64,000 nucleotides of DNA, from positions 62,001 to 126,000 of the forward strand of contig JAUIGV010000003.1 in the NCBI GenBank assembly GCA_030432565.1, in the 5' to 3' direction. This document shows positions 29,324 through 44,389 of the stretch, one piece after another. The notes beneath the pieces were generated by a model. That model was not told the origin of the DNA. It saw only the letters and a program-made list of their open reading frames with translations, and did no database searches. The stretch's first letter is position 1, and each line of letters begins with the position of its first letter. Both the position numbers and the translations under genes were made by a program. The stretch comes from Verrucomicrobiia bacterium (lineage in GTDB: Bacteria > Verrucomicrobiota > Verrucomicrobiia > Verrucomicrobiales > Akkermansiaceae).

Positions 29324-29412
29324 GACCTTTTTTGACATTGGGGTGAGCGGAGCGCGATCCGTTGAATGAAAGGCCGGATCAACCGGCCCATAGAACCGAT
29401 CAAATCAATCCC

Positions 29413-30173
29413 ATGAAATATCTACTTCGCTGCGCCGTCCTCGGGCACCTCCTGCTTGCCACCACCGCCTCCGCTTCCGTGGTCTCGACTTTCGCGGTCG
29501 ATTTCCACGGCACTTCCCAACCCGATCTCCTGACTTCGACGGATACTGCCGGAGTGATTCCGACCACCAATTGGATCCCGGCAGTCGGTTCCTCAGGTGG
29601 AACCAGCGGGCTCACCAACACCGGAATTGGCGGGTCAATTTTTGTCGGTTGGAATGGGCCGATGAGTGGAACGATTGGTGGAAGTGCGTCCTCCAATCCG
29701 GACGAGGATATGATGGAGGGCTACATCGCAGGTTTTGTTGATGCCACTGGTTCTGTTCAACAGGCGACCGTTCAGGTCGGGACCCTGAATTTGCCGGCTC
29801 TGGGATGGGACTACTATGATCTCTACGTTTACAGTGATCAGGGAATGAGCCCTCCCAATCTAGGCTTGATTACCCGGGTAGGCTCCCCCGATCCAAGTGC
29901 GACCTTGATGCATCAGGAGCATGCTCTTGGATACGGTGCCGGTGCCTCGGGCTATCTTGACAGTCAGGTTTCTCCTGATGGGAACTACCTCCGCTACACG
30001 GGGCTGACGGCGCCCGTGTTTTCGCTGATTGCCGGTCCGTCGACAGGAAGTGGCTCCACGGCGATCAATGGAATCGAGATCGTGGGATACCGGAATGTGC
30101 CGGAGCCTTCAAGCGGGCTGGCGGTGTTGTTTGGTGCGGCCTTGCTCGCCTTTCGCCGCAAAAGGACAGCATG

Positions 30174-30177
<4 letters not shown>
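29413..30177 (+). CDS. PEP-CTERM sorted secreted protein, hypothetical
   Basis: ATG 29413 is chosen at the signal peptide (KYLLRCAVLGHLLLATTASAS); the 254-residue protein is otherwise Gly/Ser/Thr-rich and beta-like. The C-terminus is a PEP-CTERM signal: VPEPS, a hydrophobic segment (SGLAVLFGAALLAF) and the basic RRKR. Such proteins are processed by an exosortase, not present in this window. The stop overlaps the convergent SNF2 helicase stop by 4 bp. Confidence 0.85.
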
Positions 30178-32884: not shown

Positions 32885-33244
32885 CTAAGTGGGAGAATTG
32901 ACCTCCTCTTTGAAAGCCATACGAGCTTCCAGAATCGCTGGTCTAAAGTGTCCGGTGATTTCTTGTTCGCTAATCTGGGCGGGCTTGCTCTGAGCCAATC
33001 GTTCCAGATTGGCTGCGACCTGGGCGAGAGCCGGGAATCCCGACATGGAGGCTCCACCCTTGAGACGGTGTGCTGATTCGCGGAGCTCATTGTGATTCCC
33101 TTCATTTGCCAAGCGGCAAAGTTCGCTCAGGTTTGTCTCAAGGTCGGAGAGGAAATCTTCGATGATCTCAACGAGCTCGGGGCATTCCAAGCCACCCAGG
33201 GATTCGATGTGGGACTTATCCAGGATTTCCATTAGCACATTCAT
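32885..33244 (-). CDS. stand-alone histidine phosphotransfer (Hpt) protein
   Basis: 119 residues. The four-helix Hpt bundle is recognisable by ESAHRLKGGASMSGF, with the phospho-acceptor His59 followed by the conserved K-G-G. No kinase or receiver domain is attached, so the protein must shuttle phosphate between a hybrid kinase's receiver domain and another regulator. The hybrid kinase at 37927-40422 and the NtrC-type regulator at 36025-37386 are the obvious partners. It lies directly downstream of the DUF4114 gene on the same strand, after a hairpin. Confidence 0.9.
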   Translation of the reverse strand: MNVLMEILDKSHIESLGGLECPELVEIIEDFLSDLETNLSELCRLANEGNHNELRESAHRLKGGASMSGFPALAQVAANLERLAQSKPAQISEQEITGHFRPAILEARMAFKEEVNSPT

Positions 33245-33334: not shown

Positions 33335-35785
33335 CTAGTGGCAACACTTGACATCGTCCGCTCTTGGCTGATGCCCGTCATCGGCGTTCCAGCCGGTGGT
33401 TGGATCAACCGAGCCGGTCCGGTATCCTTGGTGGAAGTTGCCTACTGCTTTAAGAGGAGTGTTGAAGTGAATGATCATGTCATCAAAGGTGATGTCACTT
33501 GGATCACCAGCTTCGACAAAATTTGGGTTTGCAAAAAGGCTGTGGTCTTCGATTGCAAAGACCGTGCCACCTTCTCCGGTGAAGGTCAGAAACTGATCGC
33601 GCATCCCCGGGTTTGCTCTGTTGATTGTGAAAAGAGGTTGACGCTTCGTTCGTTCTCCTTCTCCCTTCGGGGTGTAGCGCCACGGGTTCCTCAGGAAGGT
33701 TGTTCGTGTGTTGTTGGGCACGATGAAGAAGCCAACGGTTTTTCCCGCGAGACCCAGCAAGGCCGGATCAAAAGTGGTGACCGAGCCAATGTTGTTGAGA
33801 CGATCATCCATAATCGAAGTTGCGTTCCGGGCAGCCTGCTTCCGATACTCCAGGGATGAAGGGTCGAGGTGGGCGATGAGGTCATGGTCATAGACACAGA
33901 GGTCGAATTTCATCGAGCTGCGGTCTTCAATCATCGTCACATCAATCGGGTGGCTTGGGAGCTGGTAGAGTTGCCCAACGTGTTCGAAATCAGCCCGGGC
34001 AATCCCCATGCGGCGAAGGTGTTGTTCAACTCCGCGTGCCTGGCGGTTTGATTGAATCCCTGCTATTCCCGGGATTACGTTGTCATACTGGGTGATGCCC
34101 AGGGCGATGGGCCGGAATTCGATTTGGAAGATCACGTCATTGTAGTCGAGATCGCTAACTCCGTATTCCCAGTCTTCGAAGGCCAGGATAAGCGGACGAT
34201 CCCCGGCGATGTCTGTGAAGAGTCGACCGGCTACATGTTCCATTGAGGCAGGGTTGAGATGTGAGTCCTGATAGAGTTTTAAGGTTCCTCCCTGCGCACC
34301 ATCCTGGATAAGGTGGAAGCGAAGGTCGGTTCCGGCAGGCAGAATGCCGAGACTGGCACGGGCTCCCTGACGTAGCGGTAGGTTGGGGCCGGTCGAGGCA
34401 TCATGCCAAATCGTCGTTTGCGTCTCCGGATCGGAGGCCTCATACCATCCAAGGGTGTTGCGATTGTTGCCACCATCATAAATCAAAGTGACGATGACTT
34501 CGGCGTCTTCGTTGAGATGGAAGGCTTCGGGGTTGAAGCCAAGTTTTTCACTCTCGAGTTGGATTCCTTCTTCGCGGCAGTGCAGTTGATCCCTTACCTG
34601 AGCCCAGACCCGGCGGCCCTGCCGGTAGTCGTCTTCGGATACAGCATAGGTGGCAACACTTTCCACATCGTTTCCTTCGACTCGAACGTTGAAGTCTTCG
34701 GAGACTTGATAGTCGCCGTCATCCGCAGTTGCGCGAATCACATAGGCACCATTTCTTGAGAAAGTGACATTGGTGTTCGCACGGTGATTACGGGAGAATT
34801 TCGCTTCGCCCGGCCCGCTCTCCTGGGTCCATTTGATGGTTAGGCCGTCTCCTTCAAGTGGCAGGCCTTCATCGCTCACGGTCAGGTCGATGTTGATGCT
34901 GGCGCCAGGAAGATCGGTAACGGCGGTATCCTTTAATGTAATGGCCGGTGGCTGGTTTTCCGGGATGATGATGGGAGATTCCTGTTCGGGAATGCTCCAG
35001 CCATCGTTGTTACTGGTGACAGCGCTATCGAGAAGATAAACTGCACGGGGAGAGGAGGTGGTGAAGTTAAGGATCTGGTAAACCCCTCCCTTGTTACTCG
35101 AGACAAAAAGAGAGCCATTCTTGTCGGTATAGGCGGCTCCATAGGTGGTCCTGCCCTCCGGAAGGTTCGAAACGTCGACGCGATTTACGGTGCGGGCGTC
35201 CACGTCCCAGATGAAAAGTCGCTGGTGTCTGGCTCCAAAAAAGAAGGGGCGGCCGTCGATTTCCATGTAGACCAAATCAGCAACCCCGCCGGCAGCGGCT
35301 CCATTGAAACGGATGACGTCATACCGGTTCGTTTCTACGTTGATGCGAATAAGGGCCGAGCCGGAATCGAGCTTGTTGGATCTGACCCAGAGGTTGCCGT
35401 TGTGATCCATATCAGCAGCATAGTAGTTGGTCTCGGGTGATGTTTCTCCGTTGGGAAGCGGGGTTCCGATAATCTCAGTCGAACCGTCTCCGTGGATGCG
35501 AATCAGTTGGTTCTTGTAAGGTGCGTAGCGGCCCCAGGCGTAAACATAGCCGTCGAGTGGGTTGTAGCCCGCGGCATTGTAGGATTGGTTTTTTTCTCCG
35601 AGAGTGGTGTAGCCGCCGGAGCGCGGGTTGAGCCGGTTCGCCTGTCCCGAGATCACTTGGTAGAAGTCAGGCTGTGGTTCAAAAGCAGGTGGAGTTTGTG
35701 CGTGCGACTGAAGTCCAAGGGCCAGCCATAATGCCAGAAGTGATCTGGTCTGAAGAGCTGGTCGGGTTGTCTTTTTAGTGGTCAT
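33335..35785 (-). CDS. secreted DUF4114-containing multidomain protein
   Basis: 816 residues from ATG 35785 (MTTKKTTRPALQ); an upstream ATG at 35851 would lie upstream of the predicted promoter. A signal peptide (SLLALWLALGLQSHAQ) is followed by a DUF6923-like propeller region (YNAAGYNPLDGYVYAWG; ADMDHNGNLWVRSN), an Ig/PKD-like domain (NQPPAITLKDTAV...GAYVIRATADDGDY), and a DUF4114 region (FEDWEYGVSDLDYNDVIF). A second DUF4114-like half follows, with DDMIIHFN. DUF4114 and propeller modules are typical of large surface or matrix proteins. It has the only sigma-54-type promoter candidate I found in the window, opposite an NtrC-type regulator gene. Confidence 0.8.
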   Translation of the reverse strand: MTTKKTTRPALQTRSLLALWLALGLQSHAQTPPAFEPQPDFYQVISGQANRLNPRSGGYTTLGEKNQSYNAAGYNPLDGYVYAWGRYAPYKNQLIRIHGDGSTEIIGTPLPNGETSPETNYYAADMDHNGNLWVRSNKLDSGSALIRINVETNRYDVIRFNGAAAGGVADLVYMEIDGRPFFFGARHQRLFIWDVDARTVNRVDVSNLPEGRTTYGAAYTDKNGSLFVSSNKGGVYQILNFTTSSPRAVYLLDSAVTSNNDGWSIPEQESPIIIPENQPPAITLKDTAVTDLPGASINIDLTVSDEGLPLEGDGLTIKWTQESGPGEAKFSRNHRANTNVTFSRNGAYVIRATADDGDYQVSEDFNVRVEGNDVESVATYAVSEDDYRQGRRVWAQVRDQLHCREEGIQLESEKLGFNPEAFHLNEDAEVIVTLIYDGGNNRNTLGWYEASDPETQTTIWHDASTGPNLPLRQGARASLGILPAGTDLRFHLIQDGAQGGTLKLYQDSHLNPASMEHVAGRLFTDIAGDRPLILAFEDWEYGVSDLDYNDVIFQIEFRPIALGITQYDNVIPGIAGIQSNRQARGVEQHLRRMGIARADFEHVGQLYQLPSHPIDVTMIEDRSSMKFDLCVYDHDLIAHLDPSSLEYRKQAARNATSIMDDRLNNIGSVTTFDPALLGLAGKTVGFFIVPNNTRTTFLRNPWRYTPKGEGERTKRQPLFTINRANPGMRDQFLTFTGEGGTVFAIEDHSLFANPNFVEAGDPSDITFDDMIIHFNTPLKAVGNFHQGYRTGSVDPTTGWNADDGHQPRADDVKCCH

Positions 35786-35794
35786 GGTAATAAG

Positions 35795-35809
35795 GGCCCT
35801 CGTAGGGCC
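35795..35809 (-). promoter_or_regulatory. palindrome in the DUF4114 5' leader
   Basis: A perfect palindrome GGCCCT-CGT-AGGGCC (plus strand) ends 10 bp before the DUF4114 start codon. In the transcript it would form a short GC-rich hairpin whose right arm contains the only Shine-Dalgarno-like GAGGG, so it could limit translation initiation. Confidence 0.45.
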
Positions 35810-35818
35810 GCTTTGTAG

Positions 35819-35837
35819 AGGCAGGAGACATGCCACT
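35819..35837 (-). promoter_or_regulatory. sigma-54 (-24/-12) promoter candidate for the DUF4114 gene
   Basis: Minus strand reads TGGCATG-TCTC-CTGCC: the invariant GG (35834-35833) and GC (35822-35821) are exactly 10 bases apart, and the flanks match the consensus TGGCACG-N4-TTGCW at most positions. Transcription would start near 35809, about 24 bp before the ATG. The adjacent divergent gene encodes a sigma-54 activator, which makes the match more credible. Confidence 0.65.
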
Positions 35838-35861
35838 CTGGTTCTCTTCATTAGTTATGAT

Positions 35862-35927
35862 CTGAAAATCAGTCTGTTAAACGATGGCTACCGTTATTTG
35901 CACGGAAGTTGGCTTCTTGATTTTCAG
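35862..35927. repeat. 10-bp perfect inverted repeat, possible enhancer site for the adjacent NtrC-type regulator
   Basis: CTGAAAATCA at 35862-35871 and its exact reverse complement TGATTTTCAG at 35918-35927 are centred 56 bp apart. They lie about 28-105 bp upstream of the DUF4114 sigma-54 promoter, the distance at which activator dimers bind. A shorter arm pair (CAGGTA / TACCTG) lies at 35925-35954. Confidence 0.5.
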
Positions 35928-36024
35928 GTAGAAATTACAAGACCAGGCTACCTGTGGGGTAGAATTTACCATGTGGGTTGAGTTCACTTGTCAGATTGGG
36001 GTCAAAGGACCATGCTGGCACCCA

Positions 36025-37386
36025 ATGGAAGGAAATCCCAACCTCTTGATTGTCGAAGATGATGCGACGACACGCAGGCTGCTTGTTTTAAAAGCGCGGG
36101 ATTATGGCTTCCGCGCTCATACGGTTGAGAGCGGGGAAGAGGCGCTGGAGTGCATCAATGATGGGATCAAAGTTCTCCTCGCTGATCTTGGTTTGCCGGG
36201 GATGTCGGGTTTTGATCTGCTTGAGCGGATTGGGAAAGATCATCCTGGACTTCCCAGTGTCGTTCTTACTGCGGCTGACCGTGCTGAGGATGCGGTGCGT
36301 GCGATGAAGTTGGGAGCCTACGATTACCAGACCAAGCCCTTTGATCTTGAGGACCTCTTCCTGAGCTTGAAGCGTGCCTCCAAATTACGCGAAGTTCAGC
36401 AGGAGAATGAGGCACTCCGTGCGTCTCTCAGCGATTCTCCCGCGGATGGAAGAATGGTGGCCGAGGCACCGACGATGTTGGACTTACTGGCGAAGGCTCG
36501 CAAGGTGGCCAGGATTCAATCGACGGTTCTCCTGACGGGCGAGAGTGGTGTGGGCAAGGGAGCGTTGGCTCGTTTTATTCATGCCAACAGTGGATCGCCG
36601 GAAGCACCTTTCGTTACGGTAAGTTGTCCGGCGTTGCCAAGAGAGTTGCTGGAGAGCGAATTATTTGGTCACGAAAAAGGAGCCTTTACTGGAGCGATCA
36701 GGCGGCGCTTGGGTAAGATCGAAGCAGCGAAGGGCGGAACCTTGTTTCTTGATGAAATTGGGGACATGCCCATTGATCTTCAGCCGAAATTGCTTAACGT
36801 CCTTCAGGATCGTGAGTTCCAGCGGGTCGGAGGTGAGGAGAAAATTAAAGCGGACTTCCGCCTCATTGCGGCCACCAACATTGATTTTTCAGAGAAGATT
36901 CAGGCCGGAGAATTTCGTGAGGATTTGTTCTATCGTCTCAATGTCATTCCGCTGGAGTTGCCTCCGCTTCGCGAGCGGCCGGAAGATGTGCCCCCCCTGA
37001 TGGAGAAGATTCTTGCCGGAATCTCAATGCGTCGGAATTGCGGGGTGATCCGGCTTGATGCTCCGGCTCGCAAGCAGCTCACCGCCTACCGATGGCCCGG
37101 AAATGTCAGGGAAGTGGAGAACGTTCTGGAACGTGCGAGCGCCTTTTGTGAAGACCGAACGATCCGACTTTCCGATCTCCCGGAGTTCCTGAGTGGAGCT
37201 GACGAAGCTGCCTCTCACTCCAATCTGCCGACCGGGCTCTCGGGGCTCACACTGGAACAACTGGAGACCGAGGCGATCCGCCAAACCCTTGCGGCTTGTG
37301 ATGGAAATAAAGCGGAAGCAGCGAGAAGACTCGGGATTGCCGAAAAATCAGTTTACAATAAAATGAAACGATACGGTCTGAGTTGA
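36025..37386 (+). CDS. NtrC-family sigma-54 dependent response regulator
   Basis: 453 residues from ATG 36025. Residues 1-120 are a receiver domain with phospho-acceptor Asp54 ([12 protein letters not shown]) and a Lys in the KPFDLEDL segment. The AAA+ core has Walker A GESGVGKG, the sigma-54 contact motif GAFTGA (in [10 protein letters not shown]) and Walker [13 protein letters not shown]. The C-terminus is a Fis-type helix-turn-helix ([20 protein letters not shown]). It activates transcription with RpoN when phosphorylated. It sits 13 bp before the H-NOX gene in an apparent operon, so a route from kinase to regulator through the Hpt is likely. Confidence 0.95.
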
Positions 37387-37399
37387 CCAACACACAGAT

Positions 37400-37930
37400 A
37401 TGAAAGGAATTATTTTTACCGAGTTTCTCGGTTTGGTTGAAAGGCAATGGGATGGAGATATGGTCGATGATATCATCGAAGCATGCGATCTGGCCTCTGG
37501 CGGAGCTTATACAGCCGTGGGTACTTATGATCATCGGGAAATTGTCGCATTGGTGGGAGAGTTGAGCGAACGGAGCGAGGTGCCGGTCCCCGATCTTTTG
37601 CAAATTTACGGGGAACATCTCTTTGGAACGCTTGCAAAATCCTATCCTCATTTTGTCGCGAAATCCGGTAACTTGCTCGATTTTTTGGAAGGGGTGGAAA
37701 GTTACATTCACGTGGAAGTGCGCAAGCTCTACCCTGATGCCGAGTTGCCAAGTTTTGAGACAAAGAGAGTGGAGCCCCGGGTCCTTGAGATGATCTATCG
37801 TTCCAGTCGCCACTTGGATGATGTTTGCCACGGATTGATCAAGGGAGCGATTGTTCATTTTGACACTGAAGCGCTTGTTGAGAGGGAGCCAATCGATGAC
37901 GGGACTCGATTTGTGATACGTTGTCAATGA
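37400..37930 (+). CDS. H-NOX heme-binding NO/O2 sensor
   Basis: 176 residues, the full length of a stand-alone H-NOX. The proximal heme ligand His104 lies in YIHVEVRKLYPDAELP with the conserved Pro, and the propionate-binding triad Y133-x-S135-x-R137 (YRSSR) is intact. The distal pocket has no obvious Tyr, as in NO-selective facultative forms, though this cannot be settled by eye. The stop overlaps the kinase start (ATGA at 37927-37930), a strong sign that it controls that kinase. Upstream is the sigma-54 regulator. Confidence 0.94.
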   Translation: MKGIIFTEFLGLVERQWDGDMVDDIIEACDLASGGAYTAVGTYDHREIVALVGELSERSEVPVPDLLQIYGEHLFGTLAKSYPHFVAKSGNLLDFLEGVESYIHVEVRKLYPDAELPSFETKRVEPRVLEMIYRSSRHLDDVCHGLIKGAIVHFDTEALVEREPIDDGTRFVIRCQ

Positions 37931-40422
37931 GTGGCGACGAAGAAAGAGTGAGGCGGCTGGAGCGAAGGCTCGAGCGCGAGCGAAGGGCGCGTCACGAGGC
38001 GGAGCGCCTTCTGGAGGAGAAGAGCGGCGAACTCTTCGAAGTAAATCAGGAGCTTGAGAAGCTGCTCGAGAGTCAGGGCCGGACGCTGCAGAAATACCGT
38101 GAGGCGATGTCACGATTGGTGGAGGCCTTGCTCTGGAGCGGTGATGATCACAAGAAGAAAGTGAGTCACCTGATGGAGGAGGGCAGGGCTTTGCTGGGAG
38201 GAAACGGGGGCATCATTCTTGGGCTGGATGGGGAGCAGGGTTGGGCCGGGGAGAATCGGGCGTGGTCTTTTGGAAAGGAGCTGCCGGAGGAGGTGAAGCA
38301 GCGGGGAATGAAGGCGGTCGTCCTTGAGGAATGGACCGAGGGGGACTCGCGCTACCTGGCCATTCCCCTCGAGATTGCAACGCGCCACGTCGGGGTGATT
38401 TTGATGAGTTTGGGTCCGGGGAATCATCTTGATGAACTTGGACAGATGATTGCCGAGCTGGTTGGCACCGGGGTCGCGGCAGAGCTGGAACGCAGCGAGG
38501 CCAAGAGTGAAATCAGAATGAAAGAGGAGCGATACGAGTCCTTGTTTCATGCATCGGTCGACTCCATTCTGATCATCGATTTTGAGGGGAGGATCCAGGA
38601 GGTGAGCGAGAGTGCTCTCAAGATGTTTGGGCTAACGCGCGAATGGATGAAAAAAACGACGTTGCACCGGTTTGTAGGGCGTCATTCGTTAAAGCGGGCG
38701 GCCGGTGCTTTCCGGCAGGTCAAGGAAGTGGGCCGCTGTCACTTTGAGGCGGATCTTCTTCGTGCCGATGACTCTGTGTTTCCTGCCGAGTTGGTCGGAA
38801 ACTCGTTTGAGATTGGAGGAGAGAAGCGGATATACGCCATCATCCGGGACCTGACACAGAGGAAAAAGAATCAGGCCGAGGTCCTCGAAAGAGAGCGGAA
38901 ATTCCGGACGGTCTTCGAGCAATCACAGGACGGAATCGTTTTGCATGATCTCTCCGGTTCGGTCGTTGACGTTAATGAAACGCTTTGCAAGTTGCTCGGC
39001 TACACCGCCCCGGAGTTGAGGGGGCGTCATCTTTCGGAACTGCATCCGGAGGATTCGCTTTCAATTTGCCGGCGAGCCATGGAGGAGGTCTCGTCCCATG
39101 GTCGCTCGCGCTTCGAGTGTCAGTTTGCCCGGAAGGATGGAAGCACGTTCGTTGCGGAGGTCTGGGCAAATTCCTTTGAGTCCAGTGGCGACCAGCTGGT
39201 GCAGGGAATTGTCCGCGATGTGACCGACCAAAGACGGCGTGAGCGGGAAATTCGCGAGGCTATGGAAGCGGCCGAGCTCGCCAACGAGACCAAGTCGGTT
39301 TTCCTTGCCACGATGAGCCATGAGATCCGGACGCCCCTAAACGGAATCCTGGGATTTGCCGAGCTGCTGGATCGTTCAGGCATGTCTGATGAGCAGAGGA
39401 ATTCGGTCGAAATGATCCACAAGAGTGGAGATGTCCTTTTGGGGTTAATAAACAATATTCTGGATTTTTCGCGTGCGGAAAGTGGTCGCATTTTGGTGAC
39501 GGAAGAGGAGATCGCGCCGGCTTCATTCCTCGCAGAGACTGTTGAGCTTCACCGGGGCGTTGCTGATGGCAAAAAATTGGAACTGAGTGTTGAGATCGGA
39601 GCAGGCGTGCCGGATCAAATCACGGCGGCGAAAACACAACTTCGCCAAGTCATGATGAATCTGATCGGGAATGCGGTGAAGTTCACGGACGAAGGGTCGG
39701 TCGTTGCTGCTTTAAGCGTGCCTGCTGAGGGGACCTTGCGATTTGAAGTCACGGATTCTGGGATTGGCTTCCCTGAGGGTGACGAGGAGAAAATTTTCGA
39801 AGCGTTTTATCAGGTGGATCTTTCCTCGACCCGGCGTCACGGAGGGACCGGACTGGGTCTGGCAATCTGCCGGCAGCTCGTCGAAGAGATGGATGGCAAA
39901 ATCAAGGCAATGCGCAAGCCGTCCGGAGGGTCCCGCTTTGTCGTTGATCTCCCTCTTAGAGAGGTGCAGCAACAAGTCGAAAAGGCAGCTACTGAGCCGA
40001 TCGACCGCACGTCCTTGAGGGGCGGCGGAATGACGGTGCTCGTGGTGGAGGATCACCCGGTGAATTCAAAACTGCTCCGAATGATGCTCGAAAAACTTGG
40101 CTTCGAAGTTGTTGCCGCTGAAAACGGACGGGTGGCTTTGGAAGTTCTGAAGGAGCGCGAGAACGTCAAGATCATCTTGATGGACATGCGGATGCCGGAA
40201 ATGGACGGCTTGGAAGCAACCCAGAGGATTCGTGCCGGTGAGGCTGGAGAATCTGCACGTGAGCTGCCAGTCGTGGCGGTAACGGCCAATGCCATGGAGG
40301 CCGATCGTGAGGCCTGCCGGAAAGCGGGAATGAATCACTACCTGAGCAAACCCATCAATGGCCGCGAGCTTGAGAGAGTTCTGCTGAATGTGATCCTTCC
40401 CGATCACGGTTCCGGGATCTGA
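37927..40422 (+). CDS. H-NOX-associated hybrid histidine kinase (PAS-PAS-HisKA-HATPase-REC)
   Basis: 831 residues from ATG 37927 (TTG two codons earlier is less likely). A coiled coil (residues 1-50) precedes a cytosolic domain of unclear type (about 65-200), then two PAS domains (about 200-320 and 325-440), HisKA with His465 (MSHEIRTPLNG), an HATPase (N box NAVKF, G1 DSGIGF, G2 GTGLGL) and a REC domain with Asp753 (ILMDMRMPEMDG). No membrane segment is present, so it is cytosolic. The N-terminal coiled coil resembles those of HnoK/HqsK kinases that take signals from H-NOX. The REC domain needs an Hpt to pass phosphate on. Confidence 0.95.
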   Translation: MSGDEERVRRLERRLERERRARHEAERLLEEKSGELFEVNQELEKLLESQGRTLQKYREAMSRLVEALLWSGDDHKKKVSHLMEEGRALLGGNGGIILGLDGEQGWAGENRAWSFGKELPEEVKQRGMKAVVLEEWTEGDSRYLAIPLEIATRHVGVILMSLGPGNHLDELGQMIAELVGTGVAAELERSEAKSEIRMKEERYESLFHASVDSILIIDFEGRIQEVSESALKMFGLTREWMKKTTLHRFVGRHSLKRAAGAFRQVKEVGRCHFEADLLRADDSVFPAELVGNSFEIGGEKRIYAIIRDLTQRKKNQAEVLERERKFRTVFEQSQDGIVLHDLSGSVVDVNETLCKLLGYTAPELRGRHLSELHPEDSLSICRRAMEEVSSHGRSRFECQFARKDGSTFVAEVWANSFESSGDQLVQGIVRDVTDQRRREREIREAMEAAELANETKSVFLATMSHEIRTPLNGILGFAELLDRSGMSDEQRNSVEMIHKSGDVLLGLINNILDFSRAESGRILVTEEEIAPASFLAETVELHRGVADGKKLELSVEIGAGVPDQITAAKTQLRQVMMNLIGNAVKFTDEGSVVAALSVPAEGTLRFEVTDSGIGFPEGDEEKIFEAFYQVDLSSTRRHGGTGLGLAICRQLVEEMDGKIKAMRKPSGGSRFVVDLPLREVQQQVEKAATEPIDRTSLRGGGMTVLVVEDHPVNSKLLRMMLEKLGFEVVAAENGRVALEVLKERENVKIILMDMRMPEMDGLEATQRIRAGEAGESARELPVVAVTANAMEADREACRKAGMNHYLSKPINGRELERVLLNVILPDHGSGI

Positions 40423-41912
40423 CCTCCGCCAACAGATTTAAAAAGGGCCGCGGCGAATCCTGCACGTCGACCTCGGGCCGCCGCTTCTTCGTCGCGGGTG
40501 TCGTGGTATTCGATGAGGACATTCAGCAGACGTCGGATGTCGACAAGTCCTGCGAGGTAGGATTTACGAATCAGGTCGATGCTTTTCAGGTGAGCTTCGA
40601 CCGCTTCTGATTGTTTGTCGGCATATCGGCCCTCAGTTTCGAGGCGTGTCAGGGCAATCTCGATTTCAGTGACAGCATCAATGATTTGTTGACGGTAGGC
40701 AGCCAGGCGAATGTCGGTCCGGGCTTCTTCTTCCTTGATGCGATTTTGAATACGGCAGCCCTGGAAAATCCGCCACCTGAGTTTGGGTCCAAAGCCAAAG
40801 GCGCGGTTGACTTGCGAAAAGAGATCCGAGCTTGAGGTGCTTTCCCAGTTAAGACCACCGGAAACCGAGAGGATGGGATAGAGCTCGGATTCCGCCATGC
40901 CAATACGGGCCGTTTGGGCTGCCAGCTTACGTTCCTCCCGCCTGACGTCCGGCCGGTTGCGAAGTGCGTTGACGGGGGTGTCGATCAAGATGTTTTCGGG
41001 CGGAACAGGGATGCCACGGGATTTTTTAATTAGGGAGGCTAGAGTTTCAGGATCAACCCCCACACTGTTGGCGAGGCGGATTCGGGCTACTTTCATTTCC
41101 TGCTCCAGTTTGGGTAGCCGGGCTTCCCGGGTGAGGAGCTGCGCGTGCATTTCCGCAACGTCTGCTTTTGGGGTGAGGCCTTTCTCTTCCCGTGCTACGA
41201 GAATCTCATGAAGTTCACGGAAGTCGGCCGCGGCAGTCGTGGCCCGGGAAAGGCGCTCTTCGAGAGTTCGCGTTGCCATGTAGTGAAGTGCCACTTCGGC
41301 GCTGAGGACGACGAGCGCGTCGCGTTGCCATTCGATCGCTGCCGCCCATTCGGCCTCGGCGGCTTCGACTCCTCTGCGAGTTCCACCAAACAAATCGATC
41401 TCCCAGCCGGCGTCGAGTCCGGCAATGTAGTTGGTCGTATATGATGACCCGATGCTTCCTCCGAATGTGCTGGGATTATTTTCTCCGGCTTGAATCTGAG
41501 AGCGTGCTCCGATCCAAGGTGACCAGGCGGATGCGAGGACATTGCGCTGGGCGCGGGCTTCACGAATCCGGGCATCGGCCAAGGCCGCGGTCGGGTGGTT
41601 TTTGCGGGCGAGGGTGACAAGCGTGTTTAGCGATCGATCATCGAATCTCCGCCACCAAACCTCGGCTCCGCTGCGTTTGGCATACTGATCGGCGGTGAGG
41701 CGTTCGGTCCAGTAGTCACGATCTTGAGTTTTAGCTCCCTTGGAATGCCATTTTCCTGGAACCACGATTTCCGGGTCCTTGTAATCGGGGCCTACGGTCA
41801 TGCAGGAAGGGATGGCCAACACCAGCATCGTTTGGGCGATTTTGATGTGGATCGAGCGTGGCACGGCGGAAAGGTAGCCGGAGATCATCGGGGCGGTCAA
41901 GGTATCCGCCAT
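40404..41912 (-). CDS. NodT-family outer membrane efflux lipoprotein
   Basis: 502 residues from ATG 41912. It has a lipoprotein signal with lipobox-like AIPSC just before MTVGPDYKDP, the opening typical of RND outer membrane factors. Two repeats of the TolC/OprM fold are seen: long helices with ARIREARAQRNVLASAWSPW and a RNRPDVRREERKLAAQTARIGMAESELYPILSV repeat. It should be the outer-membrane channel of an efflux or export system. No inner-membrane RND pump is adjacent; the nearest periplasmic adaptor is the HlyD gene at 45365. It overlaps the kinase 3' end by 19 bp in convergent orientation. Confidence 0.88.
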   Translation of the reverse strand: MADTLTAPMISGYLSAVPRSIHIKIAQTMLVLAIPSCMTVGPDYKDPEIVVPGKWHSKGAKTQDRDYWTERLTADQYAKRSGAEVWWRRFDDRSLNTLVTLARKNHPTAALADARIREARAQRNVLASAWSPWIGARSQIQAGENNPSTFGGSIGSSYTTNYIAGLDAGWEIDLFGGTRRGVEAAEAEWAAAIEWQRDALVVLSAEVALHYMATRTLEERLSRATTAAADFRELHEILVAREEKGLTPKADVAEMHAQLLTREARLPKLEQEMKVARIRLANSVGVDPETLASLIKKSRGIPVPPENILIDTPVNALRNRPDVRREERKLAAQTARIGMAESELYPILSVSGGLNWESTSSSDLFSQVNRAFGFGPKLRWRIFQGCRIQNRIKEEEARTDIRLAAYRQQIIDAVTEIEIALTRLETEGRYADKQSEAVEAHLKSIDLIRKSYLAGLVDIRRLLNVLIEYHDTRDEEAAARGRRAGFAAALFKSVGGGQIPEP

Positions 41913-42098
41913 GACCGGTAGATTGTTCCGGCACGAAATTCCGGGTCCGGTAAAAAATGCCGGATTTTCAACAGGGTGGCAAATCGGAATAAATCCTAAA
42001 ATTATCATAAGTCGCTTATTGGTAGTTTTTTAAAAAGTTCTCGGGGCGGGTTGGTACACGCCGTGATGAATGGGGAATTCCAATCAACCAACCGATTC

Positions 42099-43103
42099 AT
42101 GAAAACCACATCCAAAATTACCCAACTCCAGTCCGTTTCATTCATCATCCCTGCCATGAATGAGGAGGAGACACTCGAAACACTCTTCAACGGCATCGCC
42201 ACCCAAATGGAATCACTCGGTTACGAGTGGGAAGTCCTCTTTATCGACGACGGCAGCACAGATAACTCGTGGAACGAGATGGTACGTCTCGCCCAGCTTC
42301 ATCCGACCAAGGTCCGCTCATTCCGCTTCCGCCGCAATCTCGGCAAGGCCGATGCGCTTGCCCTCGGTTACCAGGAAGCGACCGGTGATGTCATTTTCAC
42401 GATGGACGCCGACCTTCAGGATGACCCCAATGAAATCCCCCGCTTTCTTGAGAAACTTGCCGAGGGTTATGGAATTGTCACGGGCTGGAAGCGCAAGCGC
42501 TTTGATCCCTGGCACAAGGTCCTCCCCAGCCGGGTTTTCAATGCCGTCTTGAGCCGTTTGGTCGGAGTTCCTCTCCACGATCACAATTGCGGATTCAAAG
42601 CCTACCGGAGTGAGGTTGCCAAGGTTCTCCCAATGTATGGTGAGATGCACCGCATGGTTCCTTCTCTTGCTTCCTTCGAGGGATATCAGACCGCCGAAAT
42701 CGTGGTGCAACACCACGCCCGCCAGTTCGGAGTGAGTAAGTATGGAGTGAAGCGGATCCTCTGTGGCATCTTCGACATGACCACGGTCAGTTTTCTTAAA
42801 ACTTATCGCAACCGGCCCATGCATTTCTTCGGACGTCTTGCGCTGGTTTCGGGAGCCTTGTCCGGCCTTCTCTGGACCTCCGCGATTGTTTTGGCTGCTC
42901 TTGGAGGCGCCGCTGCTCTGCCAGCACTGGCAGGAACTCTCACCGCGATTGCAGCCGTGCTTTTCGTCGGCCAGGGCTTGCAATTGGAGCACGGTGTTTA
43001 CCGTGAGATGAAAGAGGGCCGGAGTCTTCCGGTTTCCAGTGTGGTCTCAGGCCTGAACCCATCATCCGGGGTTGCCTTCGAGGAAGCTGGTCGCGCCGCT
43101 TAA
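42099..43103 (+). CDS. GT2 polyprenyl-phosphate hexosyltransferase (DPM1/GtrB-like)
   Basis: 334 residues from ATG 42099; earlier ATGs at 42066 or GTG 42051 are in frame but lack a better ribosome site. It has GT2 motifs VSFIIPAMNEEETLE, IDDGSTDNSW and the DxD-type MDADLQDDP, then TGWKRKR and HDHNCGFKAYR, typical of undecaprenyl/dolichol-phosphate sugar transferases. Two C-terminal membrane helices follow, as in GtrB and many DPM1-like bacterial proteins. It should load a lipid carrier with a sugar for the GT-C enzyme at 48138. First gene of a six-gene co-directional set. Confidence 0.9.
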   Translation: MKTTSKITQLQSVSFIIPAMNEEETLETLFNGIATQMESLGYEWEVLFIDDGSTDNSWNEMVRLAQLHPTKVRSFRFRRNLGKADALALGYQEATGDVIFTMDADLQDDPNEIPRFLEKLAEGYGIVTGWKRKRFDPWHKVLPSRVFNAVLSRLVGVPLHDHNCGFKAYRSEVAKVLPMYGEMHRMVPSLASFEGYQTAEIVVQHHARQFGVSKYGVKRILCGIFDMTTVSFLKTYRNRPMHFFGRLALVSGALSGLLWTSAIVLAALGGAAALPALAGTLTAIAAVLFVGQGLQLEHGVYREMKEGRSLPVSSVVSGLNPSSGVAFEEAGRAA

Positions 43104-43138: not shown

Positions 43139-44389
43139 ATGAGCACTCTCTTCTCAGCTTTCAACCGCCGCTCCAGCCGCCCCCGGGTGGCCGTGGTGAC
43201 CTCAACCTACGCCCGTAGTCAGGATGACCATCAGGTTCCATGGATGCGCGAGATGGCTGCCCGCACTGCCAGCCATCTTGAATCGCTCAAGGTCTATGCT
43301 CCGTCATTCCGGGGGTTGACCAATCACGAAATCGATGGAGTTGAGGTTCGCCGTTTTCGTTATGCACCTGCGAACAGCGAAACTTTGACACACGACTCGG
43401 GAGCGCCAAGCAAGTCCCGCTCGCTCGGATACAAGCTTCTCGTTCTGCCCTATTTGATCATGGGAATGTTCGCGATGTTCGCGTGGTGTGTCCGTGATCG
43501 CACCCGCGTGTTACATGTCCACTGGCCTTTCCCTCATGGTTTGTGGGCGCTCTTGCCCAAGTGGATTCTTGGGGTCCGGGTGGTGGCCATGTGCCATGGT
43601 GCGGAACTCGCATTGGCTCGCAAGAGCTGGATCATCCGTAAGGCCTTGCAGTTTTTCCTGAGCCAGGCTGATGAAATTTGCGCGAATAGCTCACATACTG
43701 CCGCTGAGATCAGACGTCTTTGTGGATTTGATTCCAGGGTGGTTCCTTATGGTGCCACAGTCGCAGAGCCGGAAATCTTCCAGGAGCCACAAACCGATGA
43801 GGTTCCAACTCTCCTTTTTTGTGGTCGTCTCATCCAGCGCAAGGGAATTGATGTCCTGCTGCGTGCCCTCCCGATGGTCCTGGCGGAGCGCGCGGTGAAG
43901 CTTGTAATCACCGGCGAAGGGGATCGCAAAGCAGAATGGGAACAGCTCGCGAAAGAGCTGGGTCTTGAATCAACCGTGCGCTTTGCGGGCTTTGTTTCCA
44001 ACGAAGAACTTGGCGAACTCTACCGCAATTGCACCACCTATGTTCACCCTGCGATTCATGACGACAATGGCGACACCGAGGGGCTGGGAGTCGTGTTGAT
44101 AGAAGCTCTTGCGAATAAGAAGCCAGTGATCGCCTCGGAAGTGGGCGGGATCGTCGATGTCATTATTGATGGTGAAACCGGCCTGCTGGTTCCGGAAAAG
44201 AACGAAGGGGCACTGGCACTGGCCATCCTCCGCGTGCTTTCAGATTCCTCGCTTGCTGCCGCACTCGGAGAACAAGGCCGACTCCACGCTTCCCGCGTTT
44301 TCGATTGGGATCGATGTGCCGATTTGACCTTGGGCGTCTATCAAGGCCGCCACTTTGTCCCGGCGGGCCAGCTTCCGTTGGCTGCTTAG
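43139..44389 (+). CDS. GT4-family glycosyltransferase
   Basis: 416 residues. It has GT-B fold signs: VVTSTYARSQDDHQVPWMREMA, CHGAELALARKSW, FCGRLIQRKGIDVLLRA, the GEGDRKAEWEQLA turn, the Rossmann strand VRFAGFVSNEEL and the retaining-type E-x7-E/G region LGVVLIEALANKKPVIASEVGG. It transfers a sugar from a nucleotide donor, in the cytoplasm. A 35-bp gap to the upstream GT2 and 20 bp to the next gene suggest one transcript. Confidence 0.88.
   Translation: MSTLFSAFNRRSSRPRVAVVTSTYARSQDDHQVPWMREMAARTASHLESLKVYAPSFRGLTNHEIDGVEVRRFRYAPANSETLTHDSGAPSKSRSLGYKLLVLPYLIMGMFAMFAWCVRDRTRVLHVHWPFPHGLWALLPKWILGVRVVAMCHGAELALARKSWIIRKALQFFLSQADEICANSSHTAAEIRRLCGFDSRVVPYGATVAEPEIFQEPQTDEVPTLLFCGRLIQRKGIDVLLRALPMVLAERAVKLVITGEGDRKAEWEQLAKELGLESTVRFAGFVSNEELGELYRNCTTYVHPAIHDDNGDTEGLGVVLIEALANKKPVIASEVGGIVDVIIDGETGLLVPEKNEGALALAILRVLSDSSLAAALGEQGRLHASRVFDWDRCADLTLGVYQGRHFVPAGQLPLAA

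Follow-up and report, generated by a model that had tools for sequence, protein, structure and literature searches.

The window analysed here, a stretch of 64,000 nucleotides, holds a cluster of genes around an intergenic region (35786-36024) that lies between a DUF4114 gene on the minus strand and a divergent gene for an NtrC-type response regulator on the plus strand. The DUF4114 gene (33335-35785, minus), the putative first target of the regulator, encodes a protein of 816 amino acids with a signal-peptide-like start, in which Pfam recognises DUF6923, a PKD-like stretch just under the cut-off, and DUF4114. It is followed by a gene for an Hpt phosphotransfer protein with the motif HRLKGG (32885-33244, minus). 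The regulator (36025-37386, plus; likely ATG at 36025 in a reading frame open from 35971) combines a receiver, a sigma-54 AAA domain with GAFTGA and a Fis-type helix-turn-helix domain (HTH_8), and it is indeed the divergent activator gene that the first-pass annotation had placed here. Downstream of it lie a gene for an H-NOX (HNOB) protein (37400-37930, plus), in which the motifs IHVEVRKLYP and YRSSR, a haem-ligand histidine and the YxSxR signature are present, and the adjoining gene for a hybrid histidine kinase (37921-40422, plus) with PAS, HisKA, HATPase and receiver domains. Each of the three proteins of the presumed phosphorelay carries relay motifs: the regulator has GAFTGA and the receiver stretch, the kinase has its HisKA and receiver stretches, and the Hpt protein has HRLKGG.

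The regulator could not be named as PrsR, AtoC or NtrC, its scores being under the cut-off of each of the best 25 of 106 families; against TIGR02915 (PrsR) it reaches 382 bits with a cut-off of 502.6, and no protein in the source genome is above that cut-off. Among 288 genomes, with up to three DUF4114 candidates scored in each, H-NOX is present in 14 of the 15 that have a DUF4114 relative (E<=1e-60). The six closer DUF4114 orthologues (the window and L032, L037, L130, L132 and L136) end in CY, CCY or CCH, possibly a processing or anchoring signal. In one further genome (G146; L131:6865 onward) the DUF4114 gene is apparently interrupted near its start, with an ORF of 143 amino acids behind the site; the match of this genome to the DUF4114 protein spans query residues 116-813 only, and an assembly error is possible. 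Also near the cluster, a gene at 29362-30177 (plus) encodes a protein with a PEP-CTERM-type C-terminus, and the weight-matrix scan described below lists no regulon site before it.

The probable control region and its second copy

Facing the DUF4114 gene, TGGCATGTCTCCTGC on the minus strand (35835-35821) contains GG-N10-GC and nine of the 11 consensus letters of a -24/-12 (sigma-54) element, its -24 element being 50 bp from the DUF4114 ATG (35785). This match, to which the first-pass annotation had drawn attention, is confirmed in the sequence, and G054, whose cassette is the closest one detected (same layout, DUF4114 protein 78% identical), has a 9/11 site in register with it and at an equal distance from the ATG. 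Taken alone, the match is weak evidence; at least nine of 11 letters are matched at 12 places on the two strands of the window, 35821-35835 included, or about 0.045 times per 239 bp. The top match of the window (11/11; 33555, minus) falls inside the DUF4114 coding sequence, and the weight-matrix scan reported no palindrome pair there. At 35821-35835, the GG-N10-GC element is joined by enhancer-like sites upstream and by the NtrC-type activator gene, and an rpoN gene is present in the source genome. A search of 35600-36200 found no sigma-70-like promoter (0.4 expected) and no intrinsic-terminator-like site (0.5 expected).

Two 11-bp palindromes on the minus strand likely form the enhancer of this promoter. 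The putative proximal site, GTAATTTCTAC (35928-35938), is 92 bp upstream of -24, and the putative distal site, GTAAATTCTAC (35959-35969), lies 31 bp further upstream; the two had also appeared as direct repeat D1 in a repeat search. GTAA-TTT-CTAC of the window corresponds to GTAG-TTT-CTAC in G054, and DUF4114 orthologues of 53-55% identity (G058 and G049) have GTAATGTTTAC and a second palindrome, GTATTTTTTAC, before the -24/-12 element. One contig of G049 carries both the DUF4114 gene and the regulator, separated by ~9.5 kb, and a different contig carries H-NOX. Single palindromes are at chance level, with six matches at up to three mismatches to CTGTAA-N3-TTACAG in the 64-kb window versus 8.5 expected and none of the enhancer palindromes among the six; the pair plus promoter is above chance. 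Between pair and promoter, a further weak element is anchored on -24 across sites and is possibly IHF-like; its counterpart in the window, placed by column conservation anchored on -24 (35856-35869, minus), is a poor match.

A second copy of this arrangement (41918-42066) precedes two glycosyltransferase genes. It comprises, on the plus strand, a distal palindrome GTAGATTGTTC (41918-41928), a proximal palindrome GTAAAAAATGC (41950-41960) and a -24/-12-like element TGGTACACGCCGTGA with GA in place of GC at -12 (42052-42066), which faces the putative second target, a family-2 glycosyltransferase gene (GT2; 42099-43103, plus). The GT2 reading frame is open from 42051, and its start is placed downstream of the promoter. 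The glycosyltransferase group 1 (GT4-type) gene that follows (43139-44389, plus) is probably in one operon with GT2. This copy is the weaker of the two. Sites of this kind also precede GT2 relatives in G054, G048, G036 and G057, and those of G054, G036 and G057 share the GA at -12. An earlier description of the locus as a self-contained switch of regulator and target holds if taken more broadly: genes for H-NOX, kinase and Hpt protein and a second target promoter belong to the cluster too, and the two strong model matches listed for the source genome (below) are its two promoters. That account was incomplete in that it had missed the palindrome pair, the H-NOX gene and the promoter at 42052-42066.

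Distribution of the paired sites among genomes

One palindrome plus promoter is unspecific and shows no enrichment. A pattern with one palindrome 70-100 bp before GGCA-N7-TGC, designed from four regions (the window, G054, G058 and G049), gave 56 matches in 144 genomes versus ~97 for a backward control (counted by eye), and one versus two in the source genome. All 56 matches were then checked for a second palindrome 28-36 bp upstream, which, at seven or more of eight letters, was present in 13. A regulator orthologue (E<=1e-105, up to 11 candidates scored per genome) is present in 35 of the 144 genomes, and these account for 18 of the matches, all 13 included; the remaining five of these lack it, as do all 38 matches in genomes without the orthologue (Fisher 4.5e-9). 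The 7/8 limit, which random places pass in 0.9% of cases, was chosen after the data were seen; the test gives 1.8e-6 at 6/8 letters, where three of the 38 pass, and 5.7e-4 at 8/8, and all these values overstate independence because the genomes are related. Three of the 13 paired sites come from the four design regions, and the other ten are independent of the design.

A sequence-only model (R1) was made from 24 sites, L040 and L050 being left out of the 26 sites of the 89-93 gap class (alignment A1), and run on the 144 genomes with up to 20 first-look candidates scored per genome. At this depth, it gave 46 matches with E<=1e-5 over both palindromes and the promoter in 28 genomes (counted by eye), all within the 29 that have a close regulator orthologue (E<=2e-141), and no full-length match at that threshold in the other 115; the 29th genome (G013) has a match at 2.7e-5. 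Training of R1 drew on 16 of the 29 close-orthologue genomes, and the weight matrix described below on others, and 12 of the 13 that gave no training sequence still have a match. In the source genome (5.9 Mb), where 20 of 401 candidates were scored, there are three R1 matches: two, at contig positions 97819-97971 and 103915-104068, equal window 35818-35970 and 41914-42067 and are both training sequences, and the third is weak and outside those listed. The regulator occurs at 49-52% identity in six of the other 115 genomes. In four genomes with 49-50% identity, weak and partly partial R1 matches lie within ~230 bp of the regulator, upstream of its gene in G038 and just downstream in G044, G062 and G084; one partial match in G088 covers the promoter part only.

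Genomes in which H-NOX and the regulator are dissociated separate the two. Two genomes with H-NOX and no orthologue at 1e-105 (G026 and G046) have no R1 site, and five with the orthologue and H-NOX undetected (G041, G060, G068, G075 and G082) have one. H-NOX was therefore ruled out as what the site follows: palindrome pair and promoter track the regulator orthologue. This tracking test covered one activator family, that of the divergent NtrC-type regulator.

The geometry of the sites was read with a weight matrix from 16 sites of the same kind. A first scan with three gap classes only gave 50 matches of at least 20 bits versus one in the control, repeats from overlapping loci included; with free spacing, 745 kb of loci contained 45 sites of at least 27 bits versus two in reversed sequence. 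The two palindromes are 30-34 bp apart in 42 of these 45, and the gap from the pair to -24 is 79-81 bp in nine, 89-93 bp in 26 and 102-105 bp in seven, with three outliers. Among the pattern matches, four gaps are at 80-81 bp and nine at 91-93 bp. The gaps, which were free within 70-100 bp in the pattern search and 50-140 bp in the scan, change in steps of 11-12 bp, which fit binding on one helix face.

Sorted by the first gene downstream, 12 of the 42 sites listed (in 12 genomes) precede DUF4114 relatives, 15 (in 13 genomes) GT2 relatives, two GT4-type glycosyltransferase genes and four or five DUF1194-type genes; one of the latter was Pfam-tested, with PEP-CTERM present (G039), and the others were assigned from the similarity of their N-terminal residues. 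In five genomes of genus g16 the site has no clear protein downstream, and three sites precede other or unknown genes. Several GT2 sites, the window's included, have GA or GG at -12, and in G153 the palindrome pair is present and the -24/-12 element poor. The full site is missing before some DUF4114 relatives (G048 C1, G057 C104, G065 and two in G036 C45), some of which perhaps lie in an operon behind a GT2 site. In G103, the sites for DUF4114 and GT2 adjoin each other in opposite orientation, and the GT2 target (L130:5155-6522, plus) is fused to a response-regulator receiver domain.

The genus-g16 genomes, Roseibacillus-like relatives that by kinship label belong to the same family as the source genome, contain a conserved block that begins ~300 nt downstream of the palindromes and sigma-54 promoter (L217-L228; e.g. 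L224:4518-4687, minus, and G041:C53:20518-20687). The promoter is upstream of the block in 12 of 12 loci, and the block occurs in five of 144 genomes, all of genus g16 and with H-NOX undetected. In its predicted structure, 98.8% of cells are paired and eight pairs show double changes; of five measures, four exceed the values of all 500 shuffles, the fifth is equalled by 104 of them, and every slid version of the structure scores lower. The block is a candidate sigma-54-dependent small RNA with covariation. It has a non-significant match only in Rfam (E 0.54), and no tRNA or tmRNA was found in the RNA-bearing loci L168, L169 and L172. A Roseibacillus-type RNA in the window was rejected (best match E 0.56, partial), and no Rfam family reaches its gathering score in the 64 kb.

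A putative relay from H-NOX to the cell surface

The sequence itself shows the promoter, the palindrome pair and the relay motif residues, and it shows that the pair tracks the regulator and recurs in front of the same gene families. On these grounds we consider it probable that 35786-36024 is a sigma-54 control region through which an H-NOX-gated phosphorelay acts, via the divergent regulator, on the DUF4114 and GT2-GT4 genes. The regulator would bind the two GTAR-N3-YTAC palindromes on one helical face, ~92-134 bp upstream of -24; the DNA would loop, for which a bend of the IHF type may help, and the sigma-54 promoter would be opened by the AAA domain. The second, weaker copy would drive the GT2-GT4 operon. 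Phosphate is predicted to pass from the hybrid kinase to its own receiver domain, to the Hpt protein and on to the regulator, and H-NOX, judged by homology, may bind nitric oxide and modulate the kinase. If the response has the same sign as in Vibrio fischeri, kinase activity would fall in the presence of nitric oxide and the target genes would be turned off. The targets might serve in attachment or matrix formation: in PilY1.1 of Myxococcus xanthus, DUF4114 has been associated with the binding of calcium and of sugar (excerpts of PMC9109919), which fits an adhesion role.

The regulator and its sites could be real and the input other than nitric oxide, be it oxygen, a redox signal or a kinase dominated by its PAS domains. 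Five genus-g16 genomes keep regulator and site with H-NOX undetected, a kinase-like ORF adjoins the regulator in both g16 loci read (L168, where it was Pfam-tested, and L169), and H-NOX proteins can sense oxygen or oxidation too (excerpts of PMC7108781). However, the genes for regulator and kinase immediately flank H-NOX in 16 of the 25 H-NOX loci examined, and the H-NOX protein of the window aligns with its nearest solved relatives without gaps over ~165 residues, motif residues included; we regard another input as unlikely. It is less plausible still that promoter and palindromes are used by an activator encoded elsewhere and that the neighbouring H-NOX cassette is incidental. The source genome does have three other full-length response-regulator activators, with 350-410 bits against TIGR02915, but the site keeps company with the orthologue of the regulator next to it, also in genomes with H-NOX undetected, and in four such genomes (G041, G060, G075 and G082) site and regulator are on one contig within a few kb.

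The first-pass annotation had seen the activator site in a perfect 10-bp inverted repeat, with arms said to be 56 bp apart. The repeat is present as sequence (left arm CTGAAAATCA, 35862-35871; right arm 35918-35927, abutting the proximal palindrome), but its arms are 46 bp apart, 56 bp being the distance from start to start. A repeat as good arises in 49 of 5000 mononucleotide shuffles (~1%), the left arm plus the next base is an 11-bp palindrome by itself, and this arm overlaps the third, weakly conserved element at 35856-35869. Nevertheless, the repeat was rejected on conservation, as G054 keeps the proximal palindrome and the promoter and neither of the two arms; it is absent from the code common to the other sites. 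It is the palindrome pair that relatives retain, in step with the regulator, and we give the repeat very little credence as an activator site. Chance, with a -24/-12-like match arising at random in AT-rich intergenic DNA, could be argued from the 12 such matches in the window, from single palindromes being no more frequent than expected and from one palindrome plus promoter being no commoner than its backward control. It is already contradicted by the comparison of genomes for pair plus promoter, with 45 sites versus two in reversed sequence and confinement to genomes with the regulator, and is scarcely credible.

Building on a sigma-54 control region served by an H-NOX-gated relay, we lean towards a family-wide regulon, in which one NtrC-type regulator and a fixed enhancer code are kept, and in which the sensor (H-NOX present or absent) and the outputs are swapped. 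The outputs would be DUF4114 surface proteins, GT2/GT4 genes for polysaccharide, DUF1194 PEP-CTERM proteins and, in Roseibacillus-like genomes without H-NOX, a structured small RNA; the cassette of the window would then be a switch for attachment that responds to nitric oxide and is recognisable from the DNA alone. The H-NOX pathways compared from the literature are those of Proteobacteria, and the cassette described here is a compact one from Verrucomicrobiota that pairs a readable enhancer code with structural targets under direct control, namely a DUF4114 protein and glycosyltransferases. This would place DUF4114 proteins in a regulatory setting and connect nitric oxide with the cell surface in a way open to experiment, and helical phasing together with co-occurrence of site and regulator offers a clean case for the inheritance and rewiring of sigma-54 enhancers. 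Within the literature collection searched, no paper joined Verrucomicrobia, PEP-CTERM and sigma-54, and neither of the two that mention both Verrucomicrobia and H-NOX is, judged from its title, on a system of this type.

Comparison with known systems

The published systems are compared here from excerpts of the papers cited. The HnoX pathway of Vibrio fischeri is, by analogy, the closest working model. There, HnoX inhibits HahK and hence SypG-dependent polysaccharide production, and the order of components (HnoX-HahK-SypF(Hpt)/LuxU-SypG) is alike in that a kinase controlled by H-NOX acts through an Hpt protein on an NtrC-type activator; the targets of SypG make surface polysaccharide, which resembles the glycosyltransferase targets proposed here (PMC12369376). 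In contrast to V. fischeri, the system described here belongs to another phylum, assembles sensor, kinase, activator, Hpt protein and both target operons in one cluster, and has a DUF4114 protein as a main putative target. The SypG site, TTCTCANNNTGMDWN (PMC10162802), also differs from CTGTAA-N3-TTACAG. Vibrio harveyi, with H-NOX/HqsK-LuxU-LuxO, has the same succession of H-NOX, kinase, Hpt protein and regulator (PMC3759921). The sites of LuxO, TTGCAWWWTGCAA, are likewise palindromes that occur in pairs and have an AT core of 3 bp, and its Qrr targets recall the Roseibacillus-like relatives, in which the target looks like a structured RNA (PMC10162802). Unlike in V. harveyi, the targets here would be surface-protein and glycosyltransferase genes, and the half-sites differ. 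Neither TTGCAWWWTGCAA (up to two mismatches) nor TTCTCANNNTGMDWN (up to one) was found in 35786-36024 or 41900-42070.

A hybrid-kinase relay with an NtrC-like regulator, HsfBA, controls the DUF4114 surface protein PilY1.1 in Myxococcus xanthus, similar to what we propose; PilY1.1, however, is pilus-associated, and the excerpted passages make no mention of H-NOX (PMC9109919). The nearest described cis architecture, as far as the excerpts go, is that of the PrsK-PrsR/PEP-CTERM regulon, in which an NtrC-type regulator is combined with a sigma-54 motif and an upstream motif that ends in TTTACA and is sometimes repeated (PMC1569441). Regulator type, sigma-54 motif and the surface and exopolysaccharide context are shared with the present system, one tested target of which carries PEP-CTERM (G039), and the upstream motif may be comparable. 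Several of the palindrome sites also end in TTTACA, at a spacing other than that of PrsR. The PrsR motifs, reported in the excerpts from Proteobacteria only, are nearer to the promoter than the palindromes are here, with a mean spacer of 62.8 nt (PMC1569441), and the kinase gene of the window encodes an H-NOX-linked hybrid kinase. Given that the regulator is under the PrsR cut-off, that the spacing differs and that the half-sites of LuxO and SypG are others, the control region is therefore of a known kind and a new variant of it.
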